A stretch of 29,768 nt of DNA from a virus, in the IMG/VR virus record IMGVR_UViG_3300049048_000041, positions 1-29,768 of that record; one strand, 5' to 3'. Of this stretch, positions 2 to 12,857 are shown one piece after another. Each line of letters opens with the position of its first letter. Within the stretch, counting starts at the first letter, position 1. The notes beneath the pieces are model-generated. The model was not told the origin of the DNA and did no database searches. It saw only the letters and a program-made list of their open reading frames with translations. A program made the position numbers and the translations under genes.

Positions 2-784
2 CCCCCAGCAGCAGCTCCAGCAGGGCTGCAACAGCAGATCATGCCGCACACCAAGGCGATCTTCGATGCGCTGGCGGCGCTGGTCGGCATGGGCTCGCGC
101 ACGTTCAAGCAAGACCCTGACCACGACTACATCAGCCGCGATCAGGTCATGCCGCTGGTGCTGCGCATCCGGGACGCCGCCGGAGCAATCAACGCCGCTC
201 TCCGTGACGCCCGCCACGCCGCAGCCGAGTTGGTGGGTGGCGCTCCCATCAGGGACGAGCGCGAAGCGTTTGAGGCCGCGATGCGTGAACGCTGGCCTGT
301 CACGCGCGACTCGGACGGAGAGTACATCTCTACCTTCGTTCGCGGAGCATGGGCCGGTTGGCAAGCCCGCGCCGGAATGGTGGTGGGTGGGGGTGCTGGT
401 GCGCCGACAGACCTGCAACAGCAGATGCCATCACTCGGCACCGTCCCGTGGGAGGAACTGATCGCAGCCATTGGTGAAGCGACCGGAGCGCCGCCCACGT
501 TCGATGACAAATTCCACATCGGCCATCAGCACCCCGGCATCAACATGAATTCGCTGAATCGCATCGTCAGCCACTTCATCGCCCGCCGCGCCAGCGAGCT
601 TGCTGGGGGCGCTCCCATCAGGATGCTGACGTTCGATGAAATCGACGCGGTGTATGAGGCAGACCGGGGCGAGCGCAACTGCTTCCAGACGCAAGCCGCC
701 GACCTGCTGCGCAAGTTCTGCGAAGTGAACGGCATCAGGCTTGCCGCCATGTCGGCTGCACCTGATGGGGAGGCAGCTGACTGA
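2..784 (+). CDS. Modular repeat phage protein, 5' end cut by window edge
   Basis: Function not recognised. The frame is open from base 2 to the stop at 782-784. The first ATG (41) has no ribosome binding site, and the residues before it (PPAAAPAGLQQQI) match a linker inside the protein, so the true start is probably upstream of the window. The protein reads as short modules joined by repeated linkers: LQQQ(I)MP occurs at the start and near the middle, and ELxGGAPIR occurs twice. One module contains EAFEAA...GAWAGWQARA, a pattern I know from many small phage early proteins of unknown role. The linkers are also repeated as DNA, which suggests modules are swapped by recombination. The stop overlaps the helicase start (ATGA), so the two are probably co-translated. 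No catalytic motif is seen. Confidence 0.7.
   Translation, partial: PPAAAPAGLQQQIMPHTKAIFDALAALVGMGSRTFKQDPDHDYISRDQVMPLVLRIRDAAGAINAALRDARHAAAELVGGAPIRDEREAFEAAMRERWPVTRDSDGEYISTFVRGAWAGWQARAGMVVGGGAGAPTDLQQQMPSLGTVPWEELIAAIGEATGAPPTFDDKFHIGHQHPGINMNSLNRIVSHFIARRASELAGGAPIRMLTFDEIDAVYEADRGERNCFQTQAADLLRKFCEVNGIRLAAMSAAPDGEAAD
26..622 (+). repeat. Short direct DNA repeats marking module borders
   Basis: Two pairs of exact direct repeats lie inside the first gene. CTGCAACAGCAGAT occurs at 26-39 and 413-426. GGCGCTCCCATCAGG occurs at 239-253 and 608-622. They encode the LQQQ and GGAPIR linkers. Identity at DNA level, not only protein level, fits recent or recurrent shuffling of the modules between them. 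Confidence 0.7.
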
Positions 785-2166
785 TGCAGTTGTTCCCCTA
801 CCAGCACGATGGCGCGGCGTTCCTCGCCCGCATGCCCCAGGCCCTGCTCGCGGACGAGATGGGGCTGGGCAAGAGCGCGCAGGTGGTGCGCGCCTGCGAC
901 CTGGTGGGGGCGCAGCAGATCCTGGTGGTGTGCCCTGGCGCCGTGCGCGTGAACTGGAGCCGTGAGTTCACGCGGTTCAGCCCGATGGACAGGCCCTGCC
1001 ACCTGCTGATGACCGGCAAGGACCGGCCGGCGGCCGGCATCAACGTGGTCAGCTACGACCTCCTGGTCAACGAGAAGGTGCGCGCAGCGCTGAAGGCCAC
1101 GCGCTGGGACGTGGTGGTGATCGACGAGGCGCACTTCCTCAAGGAACGGGCAGCCAAGCGCACGAAGGCCCTGTACGGCCACGCCCAGCACCCCGGGATC
1201 ATTCACAGCGCGGCGCGCGTGTGGCGCCTCTCGGGCACGCCGGCGCCCAACAACGCCAGCGAGCTCTACACGCACCTGAAGACCGCGGGCGTGGTCAAGC
1301 AGCCGTACTGGGACTTCGTGTTCGAGTATTGCGACGGCTTTGACAGCGACTACGGCTTCAAGATCACCGGCACGAAGAACGTGCCGCGGCTGCGCGCCCT
1401 GCTCGCGCAGTTCATGCTCAGAAGGAAAAAGGACGACGTGAACCTGCAACTGCCCCCGATCGTTTTCCACCACGTCACGGTCGACCGCTCGGACGTGGAA
1501 CTGGACCCTTGGTTCTATGAGAACTGGCGCCCGCTGGGCGAAGGGCTGGAGGGGCAGCGCAAGTTCCTCTCCCAACTGAAGAACGTGGACACGACGCTCA
1601 AGGCAGCGCTGGCCACCGTGCAGAACGGCCACCACCACAACTTCAACGACGACATCAAGCTGCTCGAGTCCTTCAGCAAGAGCACGAGCACGCTGCGCAG
1701 GTACATCGGCCTGGCGAAGCTCCCCAAGGTGGCCGAGATCCTGCATGAAGATCTCAAGTCCGGCGCGATCGAGAAGCTGGTGATCTTCGCCATCCACGCC
1801 CAGGTGATCGAGGGCATGCGCGAGCGGCTGCGCGAGTTCCGCCCGGTCACGCTCTACGGCAACACGCCCCAGGCCAAGCGCCAGGGCCACATCGACAAGT
1901 TCCAGCAGGACAAACGGTGCCGCGTCTTCATCGGCCAGGTGGTGGCCGCCGGCACCGGAATCACACTGACCGCCGCCCACGAGGTGGCGTTCGTGGAGGC
2001 GGACTGGGTGCCGGCAAACAACGCCCAGGCCGCCATGCGCTGCCACCGTGTGGGTCAGACCCGCAAGGTGCGCGTGCGCTTTTTCGACTGCGCAGGCAGC
2101 GTGGACGAGGACGTCAACCGCGTGCTGATGAGCAAGACGCGCGAGATCGCCAAGTTCATGGACTGA
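784..2166 (+). CDS. SNF2-family (SF2) DEAH helicase/ATPase
   Basis: A superfamily 2 DNA translocase/helicase, expected to remodel or unwind DNA during phage replication or recombination. The helicase motifs appear in order: a Walker A variant DEMGLGKS (about 24-31), VVCPGAV (motif Ia region), DEAH (about 114-117), LSGTPAPN (motif III, about 149-156) and, near the C-terminus, AAMRCHRVGQTRKV (motif VI, about 415-428), a typical SNF2/SMARCAL1-type signature. At 460 aa it is the minimal two-domain core with no extra DNA-binding domain. The ATG at 784 overlaps the upstream stop as ATGA. Genes of this kind are common in replication modules carrying DUF2800, DUF2815 and a PolA-type polymerase, as here. 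The enzyme class is clear; its exact role (replication start, fork reversal or recombination) is inferred. Confidence 0.93.
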   Translation: MQLFPYQHDGAAFLARMPQALLADEMGLGKSAQVVRACDLVGAQQILVVCPGAVRVNWSREFTRFSPMDRPCHLLMTGKDRPAAGINVVSYDLLVNEKVRAALKATRWDVVVIDEAHFLKERAAKRTKALYGHAQHPGIIHSAARVWRLSGTPAPNNASELYTHLKTAGVVKQPYWDFVFEYCDGFDSDYGFKITGTKNVPRLRALLAQFMLRRKKDDVNLQLPPIVFHHVTVDRSDVELDPWFYENWRPLGEGLEGQRKFLSQLKNVDTTLKAALATVQNGHHHNFNDDIKLLESFSKSTSTLRRYIGLAKLPKVAEILHEDLKSGAIEKLVIFAIHAQVIEGMRERLREFRPVTLYGNTPQAKRQGHIDKFQQDKRCRVFIGQVVAAGTGITLTAAHEVAFVEADWVPANNAQAAMRCHRVGQTRKVRVRFFDCAGSVDEDVNRVLMSKTREIAKFMD

Positions 2167-2181
2167 CCTGTGCGGTTGATG

Positions 2182-2196
2182 TTGAGAAAATCGCAA
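2182..2196 (+). promoter_or_regulatory. Near-palindromic 15-bp motif, copy A
   Basis: TTGAGAAAATCGCAA fits the inverted-repeat pattern TTGNG-N5-CNCAA. Related copies lie at 5074-5088, 18060-18074 and 28589-28603, all at gene boundaries. It overlaps the -35 box of a predicted promoter, a placement typical of a repressor or activator operator. The binding protein is unknown. Confidence 0.5.
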
Positions 2197-2210
2197 TAGT
2201 CCCCTATAGT
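2182..2210 (+). promoter_or_regulatory. Predicted sigma70 promoter for the 187-aa gene
   Basis: TTGAGA (2182-2187) and TATAGT (2205-2210) are separated by exactly 17 bases, in the only sizeable gap near the start of the early operon. The AT-rich spacer stands out against very GC-rich surroundings. The -35 box lies inside the near-palindrome at 2182-2196, so a protein binding there could block the promoter. Confidence 0.6.
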
Positions 2211-2232
2211 TCACCTTCACCCGGAGTCATCA

Positions 2233-2796
2233 ATGCACTTCCAACTGACCGGCGAAACCGCCGAGCTCAACCAGGCGGACGCCGCCTTCCTCCGCGGCAT
2301 CGCCCGCGTCATCGACGAGGCCACCGGCCCCAACGTCGGCCCGATCTCCACGACTTCTGCCGCTCCGGCAGTTGCCACGCCCCAGCCGCAGGTGGGCGAA
2401 AACAGCGGCACCACCGTCACGGTGTCTCCCTTGGCCGGGGGCGGTGGCGTGAGCGGGGCCGGCAGCACCGTCGAGGTGACGTCGGCCCCCGCTCCCGAGA
2501 AGAAGCGCGGGCCCGGTCGCCCGCCCAAGGCTGCGCCGGCTCCGGCCCCGACCGAGCCGCCCGCTCCCGGCCCCGTGCAGGAACCGGTTGCCGCCGGCCC
2601 GCAGCCCGAACCCAGCACCCCCAGTCCCGACGCCGCCCCGATGACGCTCGACCAGGTGCGCCTGGCGCTGCAGGAGTTCACCGGTGCCAAGGGCGTGGAC
2701 GCCGGCATCGAACTGCTCAAGGGCTTCGGCGCCAGCCGCATCAGCGAACTGAAGGCCGACGACTACGCTGCCTTCGCCGCCAAGTGCAGGGCATGA
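2233..2796 (+). CDS. Proline/alanine-rich phage protein with AT-hook motif
   Basis: Not assigned to a named family. Three parts are visible in 187 aa: an N-terminal segment of about 35 aa, a long low-complexity Pro/Ala/Gly linker (about 36-135), and a compact helical C-terminal domain from MTLDQVRLAL to AAKCRA (about 137-187). The linker holds KKRGPGRPPK, whose core GRP flanked by basic residues is an AT-hook, a minor-groove DNA-binding motif. The C-terminal domain (LLKGFGASRISELKADDY) resembles one I associate with small phage replication-region proteins of unknown function. The start follows a CGGAG ribosome binding site and a predicted promoter. It could be a DNA-bound accessory factor for the replication proteins; that is inference. 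Confidence 0.75.
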   Translation: MHFQLTGETAELNQADAAFLRGIARVIDEATGPNVGPISTTSAAPAVATPQPQVGENSGTTVTVSPLAGGGGVSGAGSTVEVTSAPAPEKKRGPGRPPKAAPAPAPTEPPAPGPVQEPVAAGPQPEPSTPSPDAAPMTLDQVRLALQEFTGAKGVDAGIELLKGFGASRISELKADDYAAFAAKCRA

Positions 2797-2900
2797 GCGG
2801 CGCCGACTTCCTGCTGGTGGCCACGATCATCTACGCTGCCGGCGTCGCCAGCGGCGTGGTGATCTGGGACGTGCTGTGCGCCAGGAGCAAGCCCGAATGA
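2793..2900 (+). CDS. 35-aa single-pass membrane peptide
   Basis: A 35-codon gene whose ATG overlaps the upstream stop as ATGA and whose own stop overlaps the next start as ATGA, so it sits in a translationally coupled chain. The product has one hydrophobic segment (FLLVATIIYAAGVASGVVIW, about 6-25) followed by a short basic tail (CARSKPE), which suggests an inner-membrane peptide with its N-terminus outside. No family recognised. Tiny membrane genes in early operons sometimes affect host physiology or superinfection, but nothing here shows which. Confidence 0.6.
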   Translation: MSGADFLLVATIIYAAGVASGVVIWDVLCARSKPE

Positions 2901-3370
2901 GCGCGCCCGCTGGCTTCCGCCCGATTCCCGGCTACCCTGCCTACTTCGTGAACGCGGACGGGGATGTGTTCAGCACGGTCAGCCACCGGGTCCTGAAGCC
3001 CTTGGCGTACACCAACGGGTACGTGGGCGTGAACCTGGGGCGCGGGCAGCGGCACCTAGTGCACCGGCTCGTCGCTTCGGCATTTCTCGACAACCCCGCA
3101 AGCAAGCCCCAGGTGAACCACTTGGATGGAAACCGGACCAACAACTGCCTGGCCAATTTGGAGTGGGTGACGTGTAGCGAAAATCACAAGCACTCTTACC
3201 GGGCCCTTCACCGCAAAGGCCACGCGCTGGCGCGGCCGGTGTTGGTCAACGGCCGCCGCTATTCCGATCAGAGCGAGGCGGCTCGCGCCATCGGGGTCCG
3301 GCCCGGGTCAGTGGCGTCGGCGGCGCTGCGCGGGCACAAGTGCAAGGGCATGGAGGTGCGTTATGTCTGA
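2897..3370 (+). CDS. NUMOD4/HNH homing-type endonuclease
   Basis: A free-standing HNH nuclease of the homing type, expected to make site-specific breaks in DNA lacking its gene and so spread itself between phages. The N-terminus is NUMOD4-like (FRPIPGYPAYFVNADGDVFS, about 7-26). The HNH core follows: HRLVA with H56, VNHLDGNRTNN (H75, N82-N83) and LEWVTCSENHKH (about 88-99). A NUMOD1-like DNA-binding helix (SDQSEAARAIGVRPGSVASA) lies near 125-144. I chose the ATG at 2897 (157 aa) because it overlaps the preceding stop as ATGA; an upstream in-frame start at 2876 would add seven residues. The next gene starts 8 bases before its stop, so it is embedded in the operon with no intron visible. Confidence 0.9.
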   Translation: MSAPAGFRPIPGYPAYFVNADGDVFSTVSHRVLKPLAYTNGYVGVNLGRGQRHLVHRLVASAFLDNPASKPQVNHLDGNRTNNCLANLEWVTCSENHKHSYRALHRKGHALARPVLVNGRRYSDQSEAARAIGVRPGSVASAALRGHKCKGMEVRYV

Positions 3371-4496
3371 GCACGCCAAGCTGTCACCGTCGCACGCGCC
3401 AACCTGGATGTCATGCCCCGGCAGTGTTGTGCTGTCGGAAGGCATGCCGAACAAGTCCAGCCCGCACTCTGAACTCGGCACCCGCGCCCATGCCTTGGCA
3501 GAAGCCATCCTCGCCACGGGCGCAACGCCGCCGGACCCGGATGGCATGCTGCCCCACGTCATGGTGTACGTCGACCATGTGCGCAGCCTGGGCGGCGAAC
3601 TCCACATCGAGCAGCGTGTGCATGTCACCCAAGACGTCTACGGCACCGCAGACGCCGTGGTGTGGCAGGCCGAGGCGCGCCATCTCCACATCTGCGATTA
3701 CAAGAACGGGGCAGGCGTACCCGTCGAGATCCACGGCAACCTGCAGCTGCGCATCTACGCGCTGGCCGCGCTGCTGACGTTCAAGTACCCGGCCACCCAG
3801 GTGACGGCGACGATCGTGCAGCCGCGCTGCCCGCACGCGGACGGCCCGGTGCGGTCGGTGACCTTCGACGTGGTGGACCTGATCGACTTCCACGCGGATC
3901 TGCTGGACGCGGTTGATCGGGTGCACACCGCGCAGACGCTGCACCCGGGCAACGATCACCCGATCTGGGTGCGCGACCACTTGGCCCCCACCGAGAAGGG
4001 CTGCCGCTGGTGCCTGGCCTCGCCCAAGTGCCCTGCCCTGAAGTCCAAGGCGCAGCAACTGGCGCGCCAGGTGTTCGCCCCCGGCGTCGCCTACGACCCG
4101 CTTGAGCTCGCGCGCACGCTGGATTTCCTGCCCATCCTGGAGGGCTGGATCAAGAACACGCGCGAGTTTGCCTACGCCGAGGCCGAGAAGGGCCACGACA
4201 TCCCCGACTACAAGCTGGTGGAGAAGCGAGCCACGGCGAAGTGGAAGGACGGCGTGGCCGAGCAGCTGGCCAAGGCGCTGGGCGTCAAGCTCGATGAGCT
4301 CTATGACGACGTGCCGCGACCACTCAAGGGCATCACCGAGATCGTCAAGCTCGCGTCCGGCAAGAACGACAAGGAGCGCAAGGCGGTCATCGACCCCTTC
4401 GTCTCCCGCGAATCGAGCGGTCACACGCTCGTACACACGTCGGATAAGCGTCCGGCGGTCAAGGTGGACGCAGCCTCTGCGTTCGCCACTTCCTGA
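3363..4496 (+). CDS. DUF2800 PD-(D/E)XK nuclease with Cas4/AddB-like cysteines
   Basis: DUF2800 family, a RecB/Cas4-like nuclease group in phage recombination/replication modules. Visible: an SPSHAPTWMSCPGS start with C18, ELGTRAH with H43, and the PD-(D/E)XK core D97 (GTADAVV) and D112-Y-K114 (ICDYKNG). A cysteine group C214-X2-C217-X5-C223 (CRWCLASPKC) follows. Together with C18 this matches the C-Xn-C-X2-C-X5-C arrangement that binds a 4Fe-4S cluster in AddB and Cas4. The gene directly precedes a DUF2815 ssDNA-binding protein, so the pair may work as an end-processing nuclease plus annealing or SSB partner. Its start lies 8 bases inside the HNH gene. Family call is firm; the Fe-S cluster and partnership are inference. 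Confidence 0.9.
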   Translation: MSEHAKLSPSHAPTWMSCPGSVVLSEGMPNKSSPHSELGTRAHALAEAILATGATPPDPDGMLPHVMVYVDHVRSLGGELHIEQRVHVTQDVYGTADAVVWQAEARHLHICDYKNGAGVPVEIHGNLQLRIYALAALLTFKYPATQVTATIVQPRCPHADGPVRSVTFDVVDLIDFHADLLDAVDRVHTAQTLHPGNDHPIWVRDHLAPTEKGCRWCLASPKCPALKSKAQQLARQVFAPGVAYDPLELARTLDFLPILEGWIKNTREFAYAEAEKGHDIPDYKLVEKRATAKWKDGVAEQLAKALGVKLDELYDDVPRPLKGITEIVKLASGKNDKERKAVIDPFVSRESSGHTLVHTSDKRPAVKVDAASAFATS

Positions 4497-4515
4497 AACC
4501 CTCTGGATCAATCAC

Positions 4516-5070
4516 ATGAGCGACAACATCCTCACCCCCGAGTTCCGTGCCGGCTTCGTCGGCTTGTTCAAGGCCAGCGCCCCCAAGGAAGACCCCAACG
4601 GCAAGAAGAAGTACAGCATCCGCGCGATCTTCATGCCCGGCGCCGACCTCACGCCGATGAAGAAGGAAGCCGAGGCGGCCGCCGTCGAGAAGTGGGGCGC
4701 CAACATCCCCAAGACCATGCGCAGCCCGTTCCGCAAGAACGAGGAACTGGAGAACCCGGTGCCCGGCATCCCCGATGACGCCATCGTGATGACGTTCTCC
4801 GCGAACGAGGACCGCCGCCCGGGCCTGGTGGACGCCAACCTGCAGGACATCATCGACGACGCCCAGGTCTACAGCGGCGCGTGGTTCCGCGCCCAGGTGC
4901 GCGCCTTCGCCTACGAGGCCAAGGGCAACAAGGGCGTGAGCTTCGGCCTGCAGAACGTCCAAAAGCTGCGCGACGACGAGCCGCTGGGCAAGGGCAAGGT
5001 GCCCGCCAGCAAGGCGTTCACCGCCGTGGAGGGCGCCGGCGGCAACTCCGCAGGATCCATCTTCGGCTGA
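4516..5070 (+). CDS. DUF2815 ssDNA-binding protein
   Basis: DUF2815 phage protein (184 aa), a family annotated as single-stranded DNA-binding and expected to coat ssDNA at the phage fork or during recombination. Typical features are an N-terminal FRAGFVGLFKASAPKEDPNG, KYSIRAIFMPGADLTPMKKE, a region rich in R and K around MRSPFRKNEE, and SGAWFRAQVRAFAYE with a conserved aromatic strand pattern. The C-terminus is low-complexity (GAGGNSAGSIFG), as often in SSB-like proteins, but lacks the acidic tip of bacterial SSB. The ATG at 4516 is 19 bases after the DUF2800 stop; a longer in-frame reading upstream is only a shadow of that gene. A hairpin follows directly. Confidence 0.88.
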   Translation: MSDNILTPEFRAGFVGLFKASAPKEDPNGKKKYSIRAIFMPGADLTPMKKEAEAAAVEKWGANIPKTMRSPFRKNEELENPVPGIPDDAIVMTFSANEDRRPGLVDANLQDIIDDAQVYSGAWFRAQVRAFAYEAKGNKGVSFGLQNVQKLRDDEPLGKGKVPASKAFTAVEGAGGNSAGSIFG

Positions 5071-5073
5071 GTG

Positions 5074-5088
5074 TTGCGTTTTTCTCAA
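5074..5088 (+). promoter_or_regulatory. Near-palindromic 15-bp motif, copy B
   Basis: TTGCGTTTTTCTCAA. Its reverse complement, TTGAGAAAAACGCAA, differs from copy A (2182-2196) at a single base. It sits four bases after the DUF2815 stop and just before a hairpin. Copies A and B also share flanking TG before and TAG after the core. Confidence 0.5.
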
Positions 5089-5089
5089 T

Positions 5090-5113
5090 AGCGCCCTACG
5101 GGGCGCTTCTTGT
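5090..5113 (+). terminator. Hairpin terminator or attenuator after the DUF2815 gene
   Basis: Perfect 7-bp stem AGCGCCC (5090-5096) / GGGCGCT (5101-5107) with a TACG tetraloop, followed by TCTTGT. The U-run is short, so termination may be partial. It would separate the ssDNA-binding gene from the polymerase operon and reduce readthrough. Confidence 0.5.
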
Positions 5114-5124
5114 CGGAGCACCAC

Positions 5125-5382
5125 ATGAAAAAAGTGATTGAGATCAAGCCGCTTCAGTTGATGGCGATTGTTCCCGAGGCCGGCTTCTACGACTACTGCG
5201 GCAGCCTGTACGTCGCGGCCACCCCCAACACCACCCCGATGTACGTCGGCGTCCTGTCGACGCTGCCGCTGCAGGAGTTCATCGAGTGCGTGCAGCCAGC
5301 TGGCGGCAACGTCAGCGAAGGCGCGCTGCTGCGTGCCATCGCCATCGCGCAACGTCCCGAGCTCGCAGCGCAGTTGGTGTGA
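5125..5382 (+). CDS. 85-aa phage protein upstream of DNA polymerase
   Basis: No family recognised. The ATG at 5125 follows a CGGAG ribosome binding site at good spacing, right after the hairpin. The product begins basic (MKKVIEIKP), is otherwise mixed alpha/beta in character (GFYDYCGSLYVAAT, MYVGVLSTLPLQEFIE) and has no signal peptide, membrane segment or cysteine cluster. The last codons overlap the polymerase start as GTGA, so the polymerase is likely translated by coupling to this gene. This position, fixed to the polymerase, suggests a small replication accessory role, but no motif proves it. Confidence 0.7.
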   Translation: MKKVIEIKPLQLMAIVPEAGFYDYCGSLYVAATPNTTPMYVGVLSTLPLQEFIECVQPAGGNVSEGALLRAIAIAQRPELAAQLV

Positions 5383-7481
5383 CCGAACTCCACATCGACT
5401 TCGAGACGTTCAGCGCCTGCGAACTGCGCGACGCGGGGCTGGACAACTACGCGAAGCACCCGACGACTGGCGTGCACTGCATGGCGTGGACGATGGGCGA
5501 CGAGCCGGTCGACGTGTGGACGCCCGCTGACGGCCGCACATTCTCGATGCGGGAGGTGGTGTTCAAGCACATCGCCGCTGGCGGCACCGTCGTCGCCCAC
5601 AACGCCGCATTCGAGTGGGCGATCTGGAACCACGTCTGCGTGCCCAAGTACGGCTGGCCGCCGCTTCGCATCGAGCAGATGCGCTGCACCATGGCCCAGG
5701 CGTACGCCATGGCCCTGCCCGGGGCGCTGGAGAAGCTGGCCCCGGCGCTGGGCATCGAGCAGCAGAAGGACATGGCCGGCGCCCGCGTGATGATGCAGCT
5801 GGCCAAGCCGAAGCTGGACGGTTCGTTCTGGACGCCGGCCGACGACCCCGACAAGTTCGCCAAGCTGTACGCCTACTGCAAGCAGGACGTGGTGGTCGAG
5901 CGCGAAGCCGACCGCCGGATGATGCGCCTGTCCGACGCCGAGCAGCGCCTGTGGACCATCGACCAGCGCATCAATCAGCGCGGCATCCAGGTGGACCTGG
6001 CCGCGATCGACGCTGCCATCGCCCTGGTGGAGTCCGAGAAGGCGCGGCTGAACGCCGAGATTCTGAAGGCAACTGGGGGCGTGGTCGGGAGCGCGACCGA
6101 GGTGCAGCTGCTGGTCAAGTGGATCCGCCAGTTCGTCGAGATCAAGGGGCTGGCCAAGGCCGACGTGCTGGACGCGCTGAAGGTGGACGACATGCCGCCG
6201 GCCGTGCGCCGCGCACTGCAGCTGCGCCAGGAGGCAGCCAAGTCCTCCACCGCCAAGCTGGTGGCCATGAAGCAGCGCGCATCCAGCGACGGGCGGGTGC
6301 GCGGCACCAAGCAGTACCACGGCGCTGGCACCGGCCGCTGGGCTGGGCGCGGCATGCAGACCGACAACTTCCCGCGGGGAAACCTCAAGCCCCACGAGGT
6401 GCAGGACGTGCTGAACCAGCTGCTGCGCGCGGGCAACGCGATGCAGCGCAAGATCGCCACCACCTACATCGACATGATGTACGGCCCGCCGATGGATGTC
6501 ATGGCGTCGTGCCTGCGCGGGATGATCACGGCCACCCCGGGCAACGAGCTGGTGGCCTGCGACTTCTCCAACATCGAAGGCCGCGTGCTGGCGTGGCTGG
6601 CGGGCGAAGAGTGGAAGCTGCAGGCCTTCCGCGACTACGACAAGCGCACCGGGCCGGACCTGTACCTGGTCACGGCAGGGAAGATCTACCACCGCGAGCC
6701 CACCGAGTTCACCAAGACATCGCCCGAGCGTGAGGTCGGCAAGCGCTGCGAATTGGCCTTCGGCTTCGGTGGCGGGCTGGGCGCATGGCGCAAATTCGAG
6801 ACGTACGCCACCGCGGACTACGTGCCATTCAAGGACGAGAGCGTACACGAGATCAAGAACGCCTGGCGCGACGCGCACCCCAAGCTGACCCGGTACTGGC
6901 ACGACCTGGAGAGTGCAGCCCTCAACGCAGTCGACTACCCCGGCACGCCATGCAAGGCCGGCGCCGCCGACAGGCTGGTCACGTTTAAGAAGGCAGGCTC
7001 CTTCCTGTGGTGTCGCCTGCCGAGCGGCCGCGTGCTCTGCTACCCGTACGCGCGCATCGACTCTTCGCACACCATGGTCAACACCAAGACTGGCGCGCGG
7101 AAGGTGGTGTCGGGCAATTCGATGGCCACCAACCCTCTCGGGCTCGACTGGCGGCAGGAGCGCAGCAGCGATCGCGTGCTGTGGTTCTGGGGCGTGAACG
7201 GCGTGACCAACAAGTGGGAAGAGATGAGCACGTACGGTGGCTCGCTCGCGGAGAACGTCACGCAGGCAGTAGCGCGCGACGTCCTGGCCGAAGCGATCGT
7301 GCGGCTGGATGACGCGGGCCACCAGGTGGTGATGCACGTCCACGACGAAGTTGTGTGCGAGGTGCCCGCTGGCGTCTCGCGTGTTGAGGAAATCGAAACA
7401 CTCATGTGCCAACTGCCTGCATGGGCGGCTGGTCTGCCCGTGGCTGCCGAGGGGTGGCAGGGCTTCCGCTACCGCAAGTGA
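5379..7481 (+). CDS. Family A DNA polymerase with 3'-5' exonuclease domain
   Basis: Replicative T7/PolI-type DNA polymerase (700 aa). Exonuclease motifs come first: Exo I IDFETFS with D7 and E9, Exo II VVAHNAAFEW (about 69-78), Exo III YCKQDVVVE (about 165-173). Polymerase motifs follow: A, CDFSNIEGR with the metal-binding Asp (about 394-402); B, KRCELAFGFGGG (about 453-464); C, HVHDEV (about 653-658). The start is a GTG at 5379 that overlaps the preceding stop as GTGA; it places Exo I at residue 6, as expected. The much earlier in-frame ATG at 5286 runs through the 85-aa gene and is rejected. There is no 5'-nuclease domain, which is usual for phage enzymes. It should work with the primase-helicase encoded downstream. 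Confidence 0.96.
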   Translation: MTELHIDFETFSACELRDAGLDNYAKHPTTGVHCMAWTMGDEPVDVWTPADGRTFSMREVVFKHIAAGGTVVAHNAAFEWAIWNHVCVPKYGWPPLRIEQMRCTMAQAYAMALPGALEKLAPALGIEQQKDMAGARVMMQLAKPKLDGSFWTPADDPDKFAKLYAYCKQDVVVEREADRRMMRLSDAEQRLWTIDQRINQRGIQVDLAAIDAAIALVESEKARLNAEILKATGGVVGSATEVQLLVKWIRQFVEIKGLAKADVLDALKVDDMPPAVRRALQLRQEAAKSSTAKLVAMKQRASSDGRVRGTKQYHGAGTGRWAGRGMQTDNFPRGNLKPHEVQDVLNQLLRAGNAMQRKIATTYIDMMYGPPMDVMASCLRGMITATPGNELVACDFSNIEGRVLAWLAGEEWKLQAFRDYDKRTGPDLYLVTAGKIYHREPTEFTKTSPEREVGKRCELAFGFGGGLGAWRKFETYATADYVPFKDESVHEIKNAWRDAHPKLTRYWHDLESAALNAVDYPGTPCKAGAADRLVTFKKAGSFLWCRLPSGRVLCYPYARIDSSHTMVNTKTGARKVVSGNSMATNPLGLDWRQERSSDRVLWFWGVNGVTNKWEEMSTYGGSLAENVTQAVARDVLAEAIVRLDDAGHQVVMHVHDEVVCEVPAGVSRVEEIETLMCQLPAWAAGLPVAAEGWQGFRYRK

Positions 7482-7490
7482 GGTGAACGC

Positions 7491-7745
7491 ATGTTGATCC
7501 ACGAAGCCAAGGCCATCGCCAACGGCCGCATCCCCCAGCACCTGCGCGAAGAAGCCGTGCGTGTGGTGCGCCTGCACGAGTCGATGCGCGGCACACGTGC
7601 AGCGATCGACGAATTCCAGACCGTCAGCGAAGCGCATGTGGCCAGGGCCAACGCCGTGCTGATCGTGAACCTGATCAAGGAGTGCTGCAACCGCTCGTGG
7701 TTGCCGCTCCCGGCCGTGCGCGTCACCCGCACCACAAAAAACTGA
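7491..7745 (+). CDS. 84-aa helical phage protein
   Basis: No family recognised. Nine bases after the polymerase stop, with a strong GAGGTGA ribosome binding site. The product is mostly charged helix (AKAIANGRIPQHLREEAVRVVRLHESMRG is followed by another long helix) with a pair of cysteines (ECCNRSW) and a basic C-terminus (VRVTRTTKN). It has no signal peptide or membrane segment. Placement between the polymerase and the primase suggests an accessory replication factor, without direct evidence. Confidence 0.7.
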   Translation: MLIHEAKAIANGRIPQHLREEAVRVVRLHESMRGTRAAIDEFQTVSEAHVARANAVLIVNLIKECCNRSWLPLPAVRVTRTTKN

Positions 7746-7757
7746 AGGAAGAGAGAC

Positions 7758-7964
7758 ATGGATCCCGCCGACGAAGCCGACCAGCAAGTGGAGAACCTGA
7801 ACGACATCGCCCGCGCGATGCGCAAGCCGTCCGGCCCCCTGGCCACCGGCGTGTGCGCGTGGTGCGACGAGCCCGTCGACGCCGGCAAGCGCTGGTGCGA
7901 CGTGCAGTGCCGCAACGACTGGGACAAGGCGGAAGGGCGTCGAAGTGGCGAGCAAGATGCTTGA
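7758..7964 (+). CDS. 68-aa zinc-finger-like protein
   Basis: Small protein with four cysteines arranged as CAWC (about 33-36) and WCDVQCRNDW (about 46-55), a treble-clef-like zinc-binding pattern similar to small MYM/FCS or DUF2116-type Zn ribbons. The N-terminal half is acidic and helical. The start follows GGAAGAGAG. Its 3' end overlaps the primase-helicase start by 20 bases, and the ribosome binding site of that gene lies inside it. It may contact nucleic acid or the primase; the family match is from pattern only. Confidence 0.75.
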   Translation: MDPADEADQQVENLNDIARAMRKPSGPLATGVCAWCDEPVDAGKRWCDVQCRNDWDKAEGRRSGEQDA

Positions 7965-10104
7965 GCAAGCGCTGGCGCTGGCCGCGCGTGGGTTCCATGT
8001 GTTCCCGTGCGAGGTGGGCGGCAAGCTGCCGGTGATCAAGGACTTCCCGAACCGCGCCACGCGCGAACCGGAGCAGATCGCCAAGTGGTGGGGCAGCGCC
8101 GACTACAACATCGGCATCTCCACCAGCCGCTTCCGCGAATCGCAAGCGCTGATCGTGGTGGACGTCGACAACAAGAACGGCAAGGGTGGCGACGCCAGCG
8201 TGATGACGCTGGAGTTGCAGGGCAACGAGTTGCCGCCCACCTTCGAGCAGCGCACCCCCACCGGCGGCAAGCACCTGGTGTACGTCACCGAAGTGGCGGC
8301 CAAGCAGGGCGTGGAGGTGCTGGGCTCGGGCCTGGATATTCGCAGCCGCGGCGGCTATATCGTCGGGCCCGGCAGCGAGATCGCCGGCGCCACGTACACG
8401 GTCACGGCCGACACTCTGCAGCCCGCACCCAGCTGGCTGATCATGCGTTTGGGCAACGCGCCCGACCGGCCGGCTGCCGCCGGCGAGGTGCTGCCCGGCA
8501 TCGACCCGGACCGCGCCGAGCAGCGCGCGGCCGAGTATCTGTGCAACGCGCCCGTGAGTGTTGAGGGGCAAGGCGGCGACCTGACTGCGTACAAGGTGGC
8601 GGCCAAGCTAAAGGACTTCGGCTGCACCCAGGAACAAGCCATCTTCCTGATGCACGAGTTCTGGAACACGCGCTGCTCGCCCCCGTGGTCCGACGAAGCC
8701 CTGTCCGACAAGGTCAAGCACGCCTACCAGTACGGCAAGGAGCCGGCCGGCAGCGCAGCCCCCGAGGCGGTGTTCCCCAAGGTCGACACCCCGGCGGCCA
8801 CCGGCGACGACGAGCCGCCCCACCCCGTCGACGCGCTGAACGCCAGCTACGCCTTCATCAAGGAAGGCGCGTTCGTGCTCCAGGAGACGACGGATGAGGA
8901 CGGTAAGTTCTCCACCATCCGCCTGTCGCCGCCGGACATGCACGCCTGGTTTGCCAACAAGCGGCTGCAGGTGGGCGAGAAGAGCACGCCCCTGTCGCAA
9001 CTGTGGATGCGCGCGGGCAGCCGCCGCGAGTTCGACAGCGTGGTGTTCAGCCCCGCCAGGGATCCAGGCTCGCGCTTTTACAACCTCTGGCGCGGGTTCA
9101 CGGTGGAGCCGAAGGCTGGCGACCACCCGACGCTGGCCGCCTTCCTCGAGCACGCCCTGAATAACGTGTGCAACGGCGACCAGGCGCTGTGCCGGTGGCT
9201 GCTGGGTTACTTCGCCCACATGATCCAGCGGCCGTGGGACAAGCCGCTGACGGCCCTGGTGTTTCGCGGCGCCAAGGGCACTGGCAAGAACGCGCTGGTC
9301 GAGCGGGTGGGGCACCTGTTGGGCGCCCACTTCATGGTGGCCGACGACGACCGCTACCTGCTGTCGAACTTCAATGCCCACCTGGAGAGCAACCTGTTCT
9401 TCGTGCTGGACGAGGCCAGCTGGGCGGGCGACAAGAGGGCCGAGGGGCGCCTGAAGGGCCTGATCACCGGCGCCCACCACAACATCGAGCGCAAGGGGGC
9501 CGAGCCGTACAAGGTGCGCAACCTCACGCGCGTGGCCATCATCGGCAACGAGCGCTGGCTGGTGCCGGCCACGTTCGACGAGCGCCGCTTCGCCGTGTTC
9601 GACGTGGGCAACGGCCGGCGTCAGGACCGGGCCTTCTTCGAGTCCATGCGCCTGGGCATGGAGCAAGGCGGCTACGCCCACCTGCTGCATTTCCTCCAGC
9701 AGTTCGACCTGAAGGGCGTCGACGTCAACGCGGCGCCCAAGACCCAAGGGCTGATCGACCAGGTGCGCCAGTCCATGGAGCCGCTGCACGAGTGGTGGCT
9801 GGACTGCCTGGAGTCGGGCCAGCTGGTGGGCTCGTCGCTCGCGGGCCAGTTGCCCGAGCGCATCCCCACCGAGCGCGCCTACGAGGCGCTGGAGCGCTGG
9901 GCCCGTGGCCGCAACGTGCGCACCCGGCTGCCGCGGCGCCAGGGATTCATCGAGCAGTTGCGCGAGGCCGCCCCGTCGATGGCCAAGAAGCGGGCGCGCG
10001 TGGACGACGTGAACGTCAACTGCTTCGTCGACGTGGATTTGGCGCGCCTGCGCTCCGACTGGGACCGCTTCATCGGCGTGCCGCACAAGTGGGACGAGGA
10101 ATAA
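7945..10104 (+). CDS. Primase-polymerase / SF3 helicase fusion (DUF5906-type)
   Basis: Replicative primase-helicase (719 aa). The N-terminal archaeo-eukaryotic primase (Prim-Pol) domain shows the catalytic Asp pair VVDVDNKNG (about 70-78), TPTGGKHLVY with the nucleotide-binding His (about 110-119), and LDIRSRGGYIVGPGS (third Asp, about 131-145). The C-terminal helicase has Walker A GAKGTGKN (about 441-448), Walker B FFVLDEAS (about 485-492), motif C VAIIGNERW (about 530-538) and an arginine-rich FDERRF. The GTG start at 7945 is favoured by GGAAGGG at ideal spacing; an ATG four codons later is less well placed. It supplies primers and unwinding for the family A polymerase, so the phage carries the core of its own replisome. 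No separate DnaB-type helicase is seen. Confidence 0.94.
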   Translation: MASKMLEQALALAARGFHVFPCEVGGKLPVIKDFPNRATREPEQIAKWWGSADYNIGISTSRFRESQALIVVDVDNKNGKGGDASVMTLELQGNELPPTFEQRTPTGGKHLVYVTEVAAKQGVEVLGSGLDIRSRGGYIVGPGSEIAGATYTVTADTLQPAPSWLIMRLGNAPDRPAAAGEVLPGIDPDRAEQRAAEYLCNAPVSVEGQGGDLTAYKVAAKLKDFGCTQEQAIFLMHEFWNTRCSPPWSDEALSDKVKHAYQYGKEPAGSAAPEAVFPKVDTPAATGDDEPPHPVDALNASYAFIKEGAFVLQETTDEDGKFSTIRLSPPDMHAWFANKRLQVGEKSTPLSQLWMRAGSRREFDSVVFSPARDPGSRFYNLWRGFTVEPKAGDHPTLAAFLEHALNNVCNGDQALCRWLLGYFAHMIQRPWDKPLTALVFRGAKGTGKNALVERVGHLLGAHFMVADDDRYLLSNFNAHLESNLFFVLDEASWAGDKRAEGRLKGLITGAHHNIERKGAEPYKVRNLTRVAIIGNERWLVPATFDERRFAVFDVGNGRRQDRAFFESMRLGMEQGGYAHLLHFLQQFDLKGVDVNAAPKTQGLIDQVRQSMEPLHEWWLDCLESGQLVGSSLAGQLPERIPTERAYEALERWARGRNVRTRLPRRQGFIEQLREAAPSMAKKRARVDDVNVNCFVDVDLARLRSDWDRFIGVPHKWDEE

Positions 10105-10106
10105 CT

Positions 10107-10331
10107 ATGGCCAACCAACGAACGATTGAGTTTGTCTATGAACTGCCCGGCGGGCTGCCGCTGGCGGTGCAGGTGGACCTGGCCGAAGAGAGCGGCCGCG
10201 TGATGCGCTGCTTCGGGCCCAACGGCTACCCGCTGGACACCGACGCCATCTGGATCGACACGGGAAACGTGGACGTGGGGCTGATGCCCCTGACCTTCAT
10301 CTTGAAACAGGAAGCAGGAGAGCGCGCATGA
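10107..10331 (+). CDS. 74-aa phage protein
   Basis: No family recognised. Starts two bases after the primase-helicase stop with GAGGA as ribosome binding site, and its last bases overlap the next start as ATGA. The sequence looks like a small beta-rich domain (TIEFVYELPGGLPLAVQVDL, then DAIWIDTGNVDVGLMPLTFI) with no cysteines, signal or membrane segment. The coupled position suggests it is made in step with the neighbouring excisionase-like protein. Confidence 0.7.
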   Translation: MANQRTIEFVYELPGGLPLAVQVDLAEESGRVMRCFGPNGYPLDTDAIWIDTGNVDVGLMPLTFILKQEAGERA

Positions 10332-10549
10332 CGCAAGAGACGGAACAGGTCCAGCAGGACGACGAGGTGCACCTGACCACCAAGGAGGTGGCCAAGCGCC
10401 TGCGGCTGAACGTGGTGACGCTGGCCAACTGGCGCGTCCAGGGCAAGGGCCCCATGTTCATCAAGGCGGGCCGGCGCGTGCTGTACCCGATCGACCAGCT
10501 GCAGGTGTGGGAGAAAGGCCAGCTGCGGCAGAACACGGCGGTGGCGTGA
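10328..10549 (+). CDS. Excisionase-like HTH DNA-binding protein (HTH_17/MerR-like)
   Basis: Small DNA-binding protein (73 aa) with a MerR/excisionase-type winged helix: LTTKEVAKRLRLNVVTLANW (about 16-35), then a wing KAGRRVLYPIDQLQVWEKGQ. Family members act as recombination directionality factors (Xis) or small regulators. It lies about 1.2 kb from the integrase with only the radical SAM gene and attachment region between, so it is the best Xis candidate in the window. It could instead regulate the operon or recognise the palindromic motif. It starts by ATGA overlap and its stop overlaps the radical SAM start as GTGA. Confidence 0.82.
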   Translation: MTQETEQVQQDDEVHLTTKEVAKRLRLNVVTLANWRVQGKGPMFIKAGRRVLYPIDQLQVWEKGQLRQNTAVA

Positions 10550-11505
10550 GGGTTCGGCTCACCCAGATTGACGGCGCCCTGCCGAATCTGGCGCTGATGA
10601 AACTGTCCCACTGGCATCGGTCCCGGGGCGATGAAGTCGTCTACACCCGCGAGATCCGCCGCGGGTCGGGGGAACCGGTCTACGACCGCGTGTACGGGTC
10701 TGCCATCTTCCAGTTCAGTCAGCTGCAGTTGATGCAATTCCAGCGCGAATGGCCAGGAGCCATCGTCGGCGGCACGGGCACCCCGTCCACGCAGACGGTC
10801 GAAGAGTTGATCGGTGCCGAGCACGAGCATTACGACTACGCAGACCAGGGGGTGGATTACTCCATCGGATTCACGCAGCGCGGCTGCCGCCTGAGTTGTG
10901 GCTTCTGCGTCGTCCCGACGAAGGAGGGGAAGCCCCGGTCCGCCAACACGATCGAGCAAATCTGGCGTGGCGCCGGCCACCCGAAGAAGCTGCACCTGCT
11001 GGACAACGACTTTTTCGGCAACCCCGAGTGGCGATCGCGCATCGAAGAAATCCGCCAGGGCAAGTTCCGCGTGTGCATGTCGCAAGGCATCAACGTGCGC
11101 CTGATTAACGAAGAGGCGGCCGCAGCCCTGGCGACCATCGAATACCGCGACACCAAGTTCGAGCGCCGGCGGCTATACACCGCGTGGGACAACCTCAAGA
11201 ACGAGCGCGTGTTCTTTCGCGGCGTGGACATGCTGGAGAAGGCGGGCGTTCCTGCACACCATCTGATGGCCTACATGCTGGTGGGCTACGACCCGGATGA
11301 AACCTGGCCGCGGATCTGGCACCGCTTCTATCGGATGGTCGAGCGGGGCATCCGCCCGTACCCCATGGTGTACGACCGCAAGCGCACCGACCTCAAGGTG
11401 TTTCAGCGGTGGGTGATTCGGGGCCTGTATCGCATTGCCCCATGGTCGGAATACCAGCACGCGGCACGCGATTCGGTGTCCACGGAGGCGTTCATCCTGT
11501 CCTGA
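10546..11505 (+). CDS. Radical SAM protein with B12-binding-like N-terminus
   Basis: Radical SAM superfamily protein (319 aa). The 4Fe-4S motif CX3CX2C is clear: C114, C118 and C121 in GCRLSCGFCVVP. The N-terminus (LTQIDGALPNLALMKLSHWH, then GDEVVY) resembles the Rossmann-like cobalamin-binding domain seen in many radical SAM enzymes, but lacks the DxHxxG cobalamin ligand motif. A GGTGTP loop (75-80) and LLDNDFFGNPEW after the cluster fit a TIM-barrel core. I recall related proteins in phage and bacterial genomes with no known substrate. A GTG at 10546 overlaps the previous stop as GTGA; the earlier ATG at 10507 lies inside the HTH gene. Superfamily is firm, reaction unknown. Nucleic-acid, nucleotide or cofactor modification is possible. 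Confidence 0.9.
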   Translation: MRVRLTQIDGALPNLALMKLSHWHRSRGDEVVYTREIRRGSGEPVYDRVYGSAIFQFSQLQLMQFQREWPGAIVGGTGTPSTQTVEELIGAEHEHYDYADQGVDYSIGFTQRGCRLSCGFCVVPTKEGKPRSANTIEQIWRGAGHPKKLHLLDNDFFGNPEWRSRIEEIRQGKFRVCMSQGINVRLINEEAAAALATIEYRDTKFERRRLYTAWDNLKNERVFFRGVDMLEKAGVPAHHLMAYMLVGYDPDETWPRIWHRFYRMVERGIRPYPMVYDRKRTDLKVFQRWVIRGLYRIAPWSEYQHAARDSVSTEAFILS

Positions 11506-11520
11506 CCAGCCCATTCCCGA

Positions 11521-11540
11521 GCTACCAGTGTGCTACCAGT
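11521..11540. repeat. Tandem 9-bp direct repeat beside the attachment core
   Basis: GCTACCAGT at 11521-11529 and again at 11532-11540, an 11-bp period (about one helical turn). Phased short repeats next to an att core are typical of arm-type integrase or excisionase binding sites. The binding protein is inferred. Confidence 0.5.
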
Positions 11541-11543
11541 AAA

Positions 11544-11574
11544 AAAGCCTGCTATGAACTTCATAGCAGGCTTT
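11544..11574. terminator. Bidirectional intrinsic terminator
   Basis: A 15-bp perfect inverted repeat, AAAGCCTGCTATGAA (11544-11558) / TTCATAGCAGGCTTT (11560-11574). On the minus strand it ends in six Ts, a strong intrinsic terminator directly downstream of the tRNA-Asn 3' end. On the plus strand TTTCCTTAT follows, enough to end the early operon after the radical SAM gene. It may have come from the host tRNA locus together with the att core. Confidence 0.8.
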
Positions 11575-11586
11575 CCTTATCTAGCT

Positions 11587-11633
11587 TGGCTCCCCGACCT
11601 GGGCTCGAACCAGGGACCTACGGATTAACAGTC
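11587..11633 (-). other. Attachment core: 3' part of tRNA-Asn(GTT)
   Basis: On the minus strand this reads as tRNA-Asn from the anticodon loop (CTGTTAA, anticodon GTT) through TCCGT, variable loop, T arm with GTTCGAG, the 3' acceptor strand TCGGGGA and GCCA. The D arm and the 5' acceptor strand are absent: upstream of the anticodon the sequence turns into unrelated ACGCCCCCCGTCAAC, and the anticodon stem already carries one mismatch. It is therefore not a working tRNA but the segment a phage carries to restore the host gene on integration. Position 100-150 bp from the integrase supports attP. The exact crossover is not determinable here. Confidence 0.85.
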
Positions 11634-11634
11634 T

Positions 11635-11741: not shown

Positions 11742-12857
11742 ATGACCAGCAGAGAACTCACCGAACGCGCCATCAAGGACACCCAGCCCGGCGACGTGCT
11801 GCGCGATCGCATCGTGCCCGGCCTGCACCTGCGCGCCTTCCCCCAGTCCAAAGCCTTCTACCTGTACTTCCGCACCAAGGCCGGCGTGCAGCGCAAGCCC
11901 AAGCTGGGCGAGCACGGCGCCATCACGCTGGTGCAGGCACGTGCCGTGGCGCGCGAGATGCTGGTGGAGGTGGCCGCCGGCCGCGACCCGTCCCAGAAGC
12001 GCCAGGACGATCGGGCCGAGCTCTCCGTCGAGGATCTGTGGAACGAATACTGGAAGCGGCACGGCAGCAAGAAGAAGTCCAGCGTCGACGACAAGGGCCT
12101 GTGGAACCGCTACCTGAAGAGCAGGTTCAGTAGGCAAAAGCTATCGGCCGTTGGCTACAAGCAGGTGGCCGACATGATGGACGCGCTGAAGGCCACGCCG
12201 ATCGCCGCCAACCGGGCGCTGGCCCTGCTGTCCAAGATGTTCAACTTCGCCCACCGCCCGCTGCAGCTGGTGGTGCAGAACCCGTGCAAGGGCGTGGCGC
12301 GCTACCCGGAGAACAAGCGCCGCCGGTACATGAAGGGCGACGAGCCGGCCAAGATCGCCACGCTGCTGGACGCCGTGGCCGACAAGGAGCCGGCCGGCGT
12401 CGCCTTCATCTACCTCCTGATCCTGACCGGCGCGCGGTGCGGCGAGATCGCCGCGGCCCGCTGGACCTGGCTGCACGGCAACGCGCTGCACCTGCCCGAC
12501 TCCAAGACCGGCGAGAAGCAGGTGTACCTGCCGCCCCAGGCGATGGACGTCATCGGGCGCCTGAAGCGCACCAACGGCACCATCGTCGGGATCAAGAGCC
12601 CGAAGAAGCTGTGGGACCGCGTGCGCCGCGAGGCCGGCTGCCCTGACCTTCGGCTGCACGATCTGCGCCACTCCTTCGCCAGCGCCGCCATCTCAGCAGG
12701 GTTTTCCCTCGCGCAGATTGGCGAGCTCCTGGGGCACAAGAACACCCAGACCACGCAGCGGTACGCGCACCTGGTTGAAGAAGCGGCGCTCGCCGCATCG
12801 ACGGCGACAGCAGACGTGCTGTTCGCCGCAATGAAGAAAACGCCGGCCGCGGCGTGA
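11742..12857 (+). CDS. int: Tyrosine recombinase integrase (DUF4102 N-terminal arm domain)
   Basis: Site-specific integrase (371 aa) for insertion into and excision from the host tRNA-Asn gene. The N-terminus (LTERAIKDTQPGDVLRD, LHLRAFPQSKAFYLYFR) is the DUF4102-type arm DNA-binding domain, followed by a core-binding SAM-like domain (about 85-190) and the catalytic domain. Catalytic residues are all present: R232 (TGARCGE), H306 and R309 (HDLRHS), H332 (LGHKN) and the nucleophile Y341 (QRYAHL). The ATG at 11742 has only a weak ribosome binding site (CCAGG), consistent with low expression. The adjacent tRNA-Asn fragment is the matching attachment core. Its stop overlaps a possible GTG (12854) of the lipoprotein frame, so readthrough into that gene is likely. 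Confidence 0.96.
   Translation: MTSRELTERAIKDTQPGDVLRDRIVPGLHLRAFPQSKAFYLYFRTKAGVQRKPKLGEHGAITLVQARAVAREMLVEVAAGRDPSQKRQDDRAELSVEDLWNEYWKRHGSKKKSSVDDKGLWNRYLKSRFSRQKLSAVGYKQVADMMDALKATPIAANRALALLSKMFNFAHRPLQLVVQNPCKGVARYPENKRRRYMKGDEPAKIATLLDAVADKEPAGVAFIYLLILTGARCGEIAAARWTWLHGNALHLPDSKTGEKQVYLPPQAMDVIGRLKRTNGTIVGIKSPKKLWDRVRREAGCPDLRLHDLRHSFASAAISAGFSLAQIGELLGHKNTQTTQRYAHLVEEAALAASTATADVLFAAMKKTPAAA

Follow-up and report, generated by a model that had tools for sequence, protein, structure and literature searches.

The window, by which we mean the whole stretch of DNA that was analysed, is a 29.8-kb virus record. Its minus strand carries the structural genes and, since these encode internal virion proteins, tail proteins and a major head protein, the predicted phage particle is suggested to be podovirus-like. 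The features on which this work is centred are the following.

784-10104, plus strand: replication module, common to related phages without the radical SAM (rSAM) gene
784-2166, plus strand: SNF2 helicase, replication module
3363-4496, plus strand: DUF2800 exonuclease, replication module
4513-5070, plus strand: gene of the replication module that we take to be DUF2815-like
within 5286-7481, plus strand: PolA, replication module
7945-10104, plus strand: Prim-Pol primase, replication module
10328-10549, plus strand: HTH_17/excisionase-like gene, 73 aa (HTH_17, 2.9e-8; phrog_66 excisionase/regulator, 2.5e-9), with a GTGA overlap with the rSAM start
10546-11505, plus strand: rSAM gene of the phrog_9298 family, 319 aa, GTG start (translation, profiles and model)
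10546-10860, plus strand: B12-domain-like N-terminal portion (up to about residue 105) with four strands and no cysteine; Y50/S52/F55 and G75-G76 are conserved
10885-10908, plus strand: codons of the CX3CX2C [4Fe-4S]-SAM motif (C114, C118, C121; translation)
11521-11540, no strand: 9-bp direct repeat GCTACCAGT in two copies, which may be integrase arm sites
11544-11574, no strand: perfect 15-bp inverted repeat just 3' of the rSAM stop, a hairpin and possible terminator
11588-11634, minus strand: 3' part of a tRNA-like sequence, read by eye, likely attachment-site core
11742-12857, plus strand: tyrosine integrase (profile matches)

The inverted repeat at 11544-11574 was not flagged by the terminator scan, and ARAGORN found no complete tRNA in the window; an equivalent of the tRNA-like fragment sits between the HTH_17 gene and the integrase in related phages. 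A 74-aa ORF matching no Pfam family lies between the primase and HTH_17 genes (10107-10331), and a similar-looking ORF is found in one of the related phage loci (L146, 7647-7889).

The interval 10546-11505 translates as a single open frame of 319 aa and a stop. An alternative, longer ORF begins at 10507, and homologues favour the GTG at 10546 as the start. This codon (10546-10548) shares bases with the TGA (10547-10549) of the upstream 73-aa gene, so that the GTGA overlap with an excisionase-like gene described in an earlier note on this DNA is seen, as is the complete CX3CX2C motif which that note had read in the protein. In an alignment of 66 family members with 14 invariant columns, C114 and C121 are invariant and C118 is nearly so, while residues 1-113 of the translation contain no cysteine. 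The gene has a GC content of 0.632 and a GC3 of 0.841, lower than most of its neighbours. Against phrog_9298, annotated as "radical SAM domain protein", the protein gives E 2.1e-46 (residues 4-284 against profile positions 4-265 of 305), and this match and the 14 invariant columns place the assignment far above chance level. Pfam PF04055 (Radical_SAM) gives 20.5 bits against a curated cut-off of 29.5 (E 5.8e-4), and is matched at E<=0.1 by 63 of the 66 members.

Relatives of this gene are numerous and scattered. A first scan rendered 52 viral loci with 45-67% identity, and profile scans found at least 572 viral relatives in IMG/VR as well as 354 rSAM-like stretches in cellular genomes, 80 of which were kept. 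Homologues are also present in 12 INPHARED records from isolate phages (24.7-31% identical to the window protein), in 9 records of a plasmid collection, and as an open frame 60% identical on the megaplasmid of Methylorubrum extorquens AM1, within the ORF at 11812-12996 of L260; among 299 genomes of the bacterial family to which Paraburkholderia humisilvae belongs, the seed alone carries one. Given this spread across the database scans and its rarity in that family, the gene is a sparse accessory gene of phages, prophages and plasmids, and apparently also of Bacteroidales conjugative-type elements (L129-L133), as judged from the neighbour genes. In a Magnetococcales MAG (L083, 8138-10729) the gene is found in two parts ca. 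1.5 kb apart, which may reflect an interrupting insertion. The family is thus already known, by name only: no description of its function was found among titles and the first parts of abstracts in the open-access literature, and the portions consulted of PMC7029224, PMC9301287, PMC11437467, PMC10853773 and PMC12707154 state none. A three-gene module with an rSAM gene is described for a Thermus phage in PMC11437467.

The earlier note had placed the gene between replication genes and attP, as the end of the early operon. Both statements are correct as to position, but a functional link to replication is not supported, and the gene is an insertion that the related phages do not show. A search with the primase and helicase of the window yielded 35 comparison loci from 33 contigs, two contigs being represented twice and seven loci (L150-L154, L172, L173) being only distant relatives. 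The rSAM gene is present in none of these 35 replication-module loci (profile search, E<=1e-3), including all 11 that span from primase to integrase (L140-L146, L148, L149, L162, L163), most of which have primase, HTH_17, tRNA-like fragment and integrase directly in a row. Because it is absent from related phages found through their replication genes, the rSAM gene is cargo and not a part of the replication module. Two recognisable alternative cargos only were found in or near the slot. One locus (L144, 5683-6165) has between HTH_17 and integrase a 160-aa gene similar to Thoeris anti-defence 2 (Tad2-like, PF11195, 1.6e-19), and another (L139, 2990-4155) has between primase and HTH_17 a C5 cytosine methylase (PF00145, 3.2e-13) that is apparently frameshifted and broken into two ORFs. 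Since the slot of a related phage holds a likely immunity-blocking gene, the rSAM protein may help the phage to evade bacterial defences.

An AlphaFold2 model built from the 66-row alignment has a mean pLDDT of 94.1 and a pTM of 0.87, and consists of a four-stranded B12-domain-like N-terminus (strands 2-7, 30-34, 48-52 and 73-75) followed by an rSAM barrel, a partial TIM-barrel. The lack of a SAM barrel in a predicted structure had been named in the earlier note as a possible refutation; the barrel is present, and the designation of the gene as a phage-encoded radical SAM protein is upheld by the sequence, by this model of high confidence and by known structures that align with it from residue 1 to residue 309. 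A Foldseek search of the PDB returned MiaB twice and nothing else at E<=0.001. Realignment of the top Foldseek chains with VIA-align, in which rSAM chains lead the list and the alignments cover both N-terminal domain and barrel, gave AprD4 as the best match (Z 19.7, rmsd 3.9, 293 aligned residues), followed by MgmA (19.1), MtaB (18.1), MiaB (17.9), TsrM (17.7), RimO (17.5) and OxsB (16.2). By sequence, the protein alone found no match in the PDB, and the top matches of the family-profile search, designed pentatricopeptide and alpha-solenoid repeats, were taken as spurious repeat matches. PADLOC gave no match to a known defence protein.

Two known subclasses were considered and rejected. The N-terminal domain of class 1 cobalamin rSAM enzymes is described, in the consulted portion of PMC13331322, as having five strands and a beta-hairpin. 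This five-stranded Rossmann arrangement is absent from our model, which has four strands only, and at E<=0.1 the 66 members together match 12 Pfam families, none of them B12-binding. A B12-dependent methylase was rejected on these two grounds, and the view that the N-terminus is B12-domain-like and without the cobalamin ligand motif agrees with both fold and profiles. Because S52, F55 and G75-G76 are conserved, this lid could still bind some ligand, cobalamin included. The second subclass is that of MiaB-type methylthiotransferases. Most sub-threshold NCBIfam matches are to MiaB/RimO, and TIGR00089 is matched at E<=0.1 by 45 of the 66 members; the score of the window protein is, however, 16.5 bits against a cut-off of 251. 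An auxiliary cluster of the MiaB type is disfavoured because no cysteine precedes C114, and with TIGR00089 so far under its cut-off this identity was also rejected.

Of 136 rSAM loci, the 99 that remained once redundancy at 85% identity had been removed were used for neighbourhood counts. The DNA-modification set comprised six kinds of genes represented by eight profiles (C5 methylase, ParB-methylase, PAPS reductase, DUF5131, Mom and Dam-like) and, because these were built from clusters in the very same loci, only the trend with distance counts. Such genes are found 32 times per 185 flank-kilobases within 1 kb of the rSAM gene, versus 59 times per 1006 at 1-8 kb (odds 3.4, p 1.2e-6). The position control was kept within the rSAM loci since anchor scans with helicase and SSB gave too few loci or none. 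For a first control, made up of five other clusters, the figures were 12 in 185 versus 34 in 1006 (p 0.059); control cluster c10 is a helicase fused to a DNA methylase and, when it was left out, replication genes gave 10 in 185 versus 23 in 1006 (p 0.026), a trend that does not differ from that of the modification genes (p 0.67). The survey of homologues' neighbourhoods recommended in the earlier note thus yields an enrichment of modification genes which is nonetheless unspecific and, because replication genes cluster near rSAM too, constitutes weak evidence for function. In a hand-compiled list, 26 of 79 further viral loci, whose contigs partly overlap those of the first scan, have a DNA-modification match within 2 kb.

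The rSAM gene therefore has its place in accessory early regions, along with modification and replication genes, and has no constant partner. Mom-family genes adjoin or lie near it in several loci, and on the archaeal plasmid P-10H_0 (LC711081.1; L263, 3594-5630) an intein bearing a LAGLIDADG domain interrupts a homologue immediately ahead of the cluster motif, and this homologue heads three overlapping DNA methylase genes. PAPS reductase was rejected as a constant partner, being present in 3 of 50 viral records and adjacent in few lineages, and a hypermodification operon was rejected for the window, where no match to any of the eight profiles was found. Phage genes of the DUF5131 (Gp37/Gp68) family, whose products are presumably cysteine-rich, lie near rSAM in five loci (L066, L070, L126, L181, L221). 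The neighbour listing, derived with a simple ORF chooser, includes spurious antisense ORFs.

In six cellular loci (L108, L112, L118, L131, L136, L137) the rSAM protein forms the C-terminal half of proteins of ca. 700 aa, for instance at 8975-11074 of L137. Two of the N-terminal parts were scanned with models of PtuA, the Septu ATPase, and the match was weak in L137 and clear in L131 (2.5e-11). A DruA-family gene directly follows the fused gene in four of the six loci (L108, L118, L136, L137), and 6 of the 395 genomes in the L137 phylum, seed included, encode the fused form. The structure model of this form has a mean pLDDT of 65 and was not used for fold searches. The fusion and the DruA gene make up a candidate pair of defence-like genes, found in MAGs of Desulfobacteraceae and others, which, by association, would link the rSAM enzyme to immunity-type proteins; the fused form may also have a role other than that of the stand-alone protein. 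PADLOC gave no match to a known defence protein.

From the motif and the fold we infer radical chemistry, and the reading that we prefer, with a probability of roughly 35%, is that the rSAM protein is a cargo enzyme which acts on its own in counter-defence by modifying a nucleic acid, DNA being the likeliest. The gene would be a mobile accessory of a temperate podovirus-like phage, inserted after the HTH_17/excisionase gene and ahead of the attachment site. In its product, a [4Fe-4S] cluster on C114, C118 and C121 would cleave SAM to a 5'-deoxyadenosyl radical, and this would abstract hydrogen from a substrate that the barrel and its small Rossmann-like lid hold between them; cobalamin would probably not take part. 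Modification of nucleic acid, DNA in the first place and tRNA in the second, would then prevent the host immune system from recognising or cutting its target. The Tad2-like gene in the slot, the C5 methylase near it, the methylases of P-10H_0, the Mom neighbours and the PtuA-like fusion all point in this direction; against it stand the want of a constant partner or of any partner gene that would identify the reaction, the unspecific neighbourhood trend and the small number of alternative cargos. Of the roles originally proposed, namely on DNA bases, tRNA or a host protein, the context mildly favours nucleic-acid modification and counter-defence, but singles out none.

It could also be the case, although we consider it rather unlikely, that tRNA or rRNA of host or phage is modified in a MiaB-like manner, providing escape from RNA-targeting nucleases or a tuning of translation. 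The recurrent sub-threshold TIGR00089 matches and the alignment of MiaB-RNA complexes to the model (Z 17.9 over 278-279 residues) are consistent with this, as is the PtuA-like domain of the fused form, Septu being described as cleaving a tRNA in the consulted portion of PMC13096335. However, the scores lie far under the cut-offs, N-terminal cysteines for a second cluster are missing, and the recurrent neighbour clusters contain no regularly occurring tRNA gene or gene for RNA processing. A doubtful prospect, too, is an AprD4-like chemistry on small molecules or nucleotides, such as a sugar, a nucleotide or an immune signal, for instance depleting a defence second messenger or its precursor. 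It would fit AprD4 as the top structural match and the Tad2-like gene found at this place in L144, since proteins of the Tad2-like class bind a nucleotide signal; yet AprD4 and MgmA tie within 1 Z unit, a common fold does not prove function, and the recurrent neighbour clusters include no reductase partner. Modification of a host or phage protein or peptide is quite improbable: the second structural match, MgmA, methylates a glutamine of methyl-coenzyme M reductase, and SuiB gives sequence-profile matches (8.3e-5), but SuiB-type RiPP enzymes carry extra clusters whose cysteines are absent from the rSAM alignment, and the neighbour listing shows beside rSAM neither a small precursor peptide nor a target gene that is always present.

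Should the preferred reading of counter-defence by nucleic-acid modification be true, radical SAM chemistry would join the means by which phages counter immunity, and a single assay would suffice to give a function to a family whose viral relatives number at least 572. Mass spectrometry of nucleosides with versus without the gene is feasible thanks to the 60% identical, open-frame homologue of M. extorquens AM1. Should it be wrong, the protein would be one more uncharacterised accessory enzyme. The functional hypothesis, unlike the family, is new. In its widest and distinctly speculative form, which we regard as improbable as a whole, a stand-alone, cobalamin-free rSAM family of phages, plasmids and conjugative elements would install a novel nucleic-acid modification (e.g. 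on the methyl group of methylated bases or on another carbon) as counter-defence, being an oxygen-independent counterpart of the iron/oxoglutarate DNA-base oxidases, and bacteria would have fused the enzyme to a Septu-like ATPase beside DruA as a defence-like system.

With respect to known systems, AprD4 (a 1,2-diol dehydratase), TsrM, OxsB and MgmA share with the window protein a Rossmann-like N-terminal domain followed by an rSAM barrel, residues 1-309 being aligned with Z scores of 16-19.7, although they are 417-731 aa long versus 319 aa. The MiaB/RimO methylthiotransferases resemble it in fold (Z 17.5-17.9) and in sub-threshold profile matches around the cluster motif, but in the window protein N-terminal cysteines are missing and the only cysteines in conserved columns are the three of the motif. 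A label similar to that of phrog_9298 is carried by genes of Bacteroides, Oscillospiraceae and Methanomassiliicoccales phages. Finally, the Tad2-like cargo of the related phage, even if unrelated to rSAM as a protein, occupies the very insertion slot, from HTH_17 to integrase, in which the rSAM gene is found.
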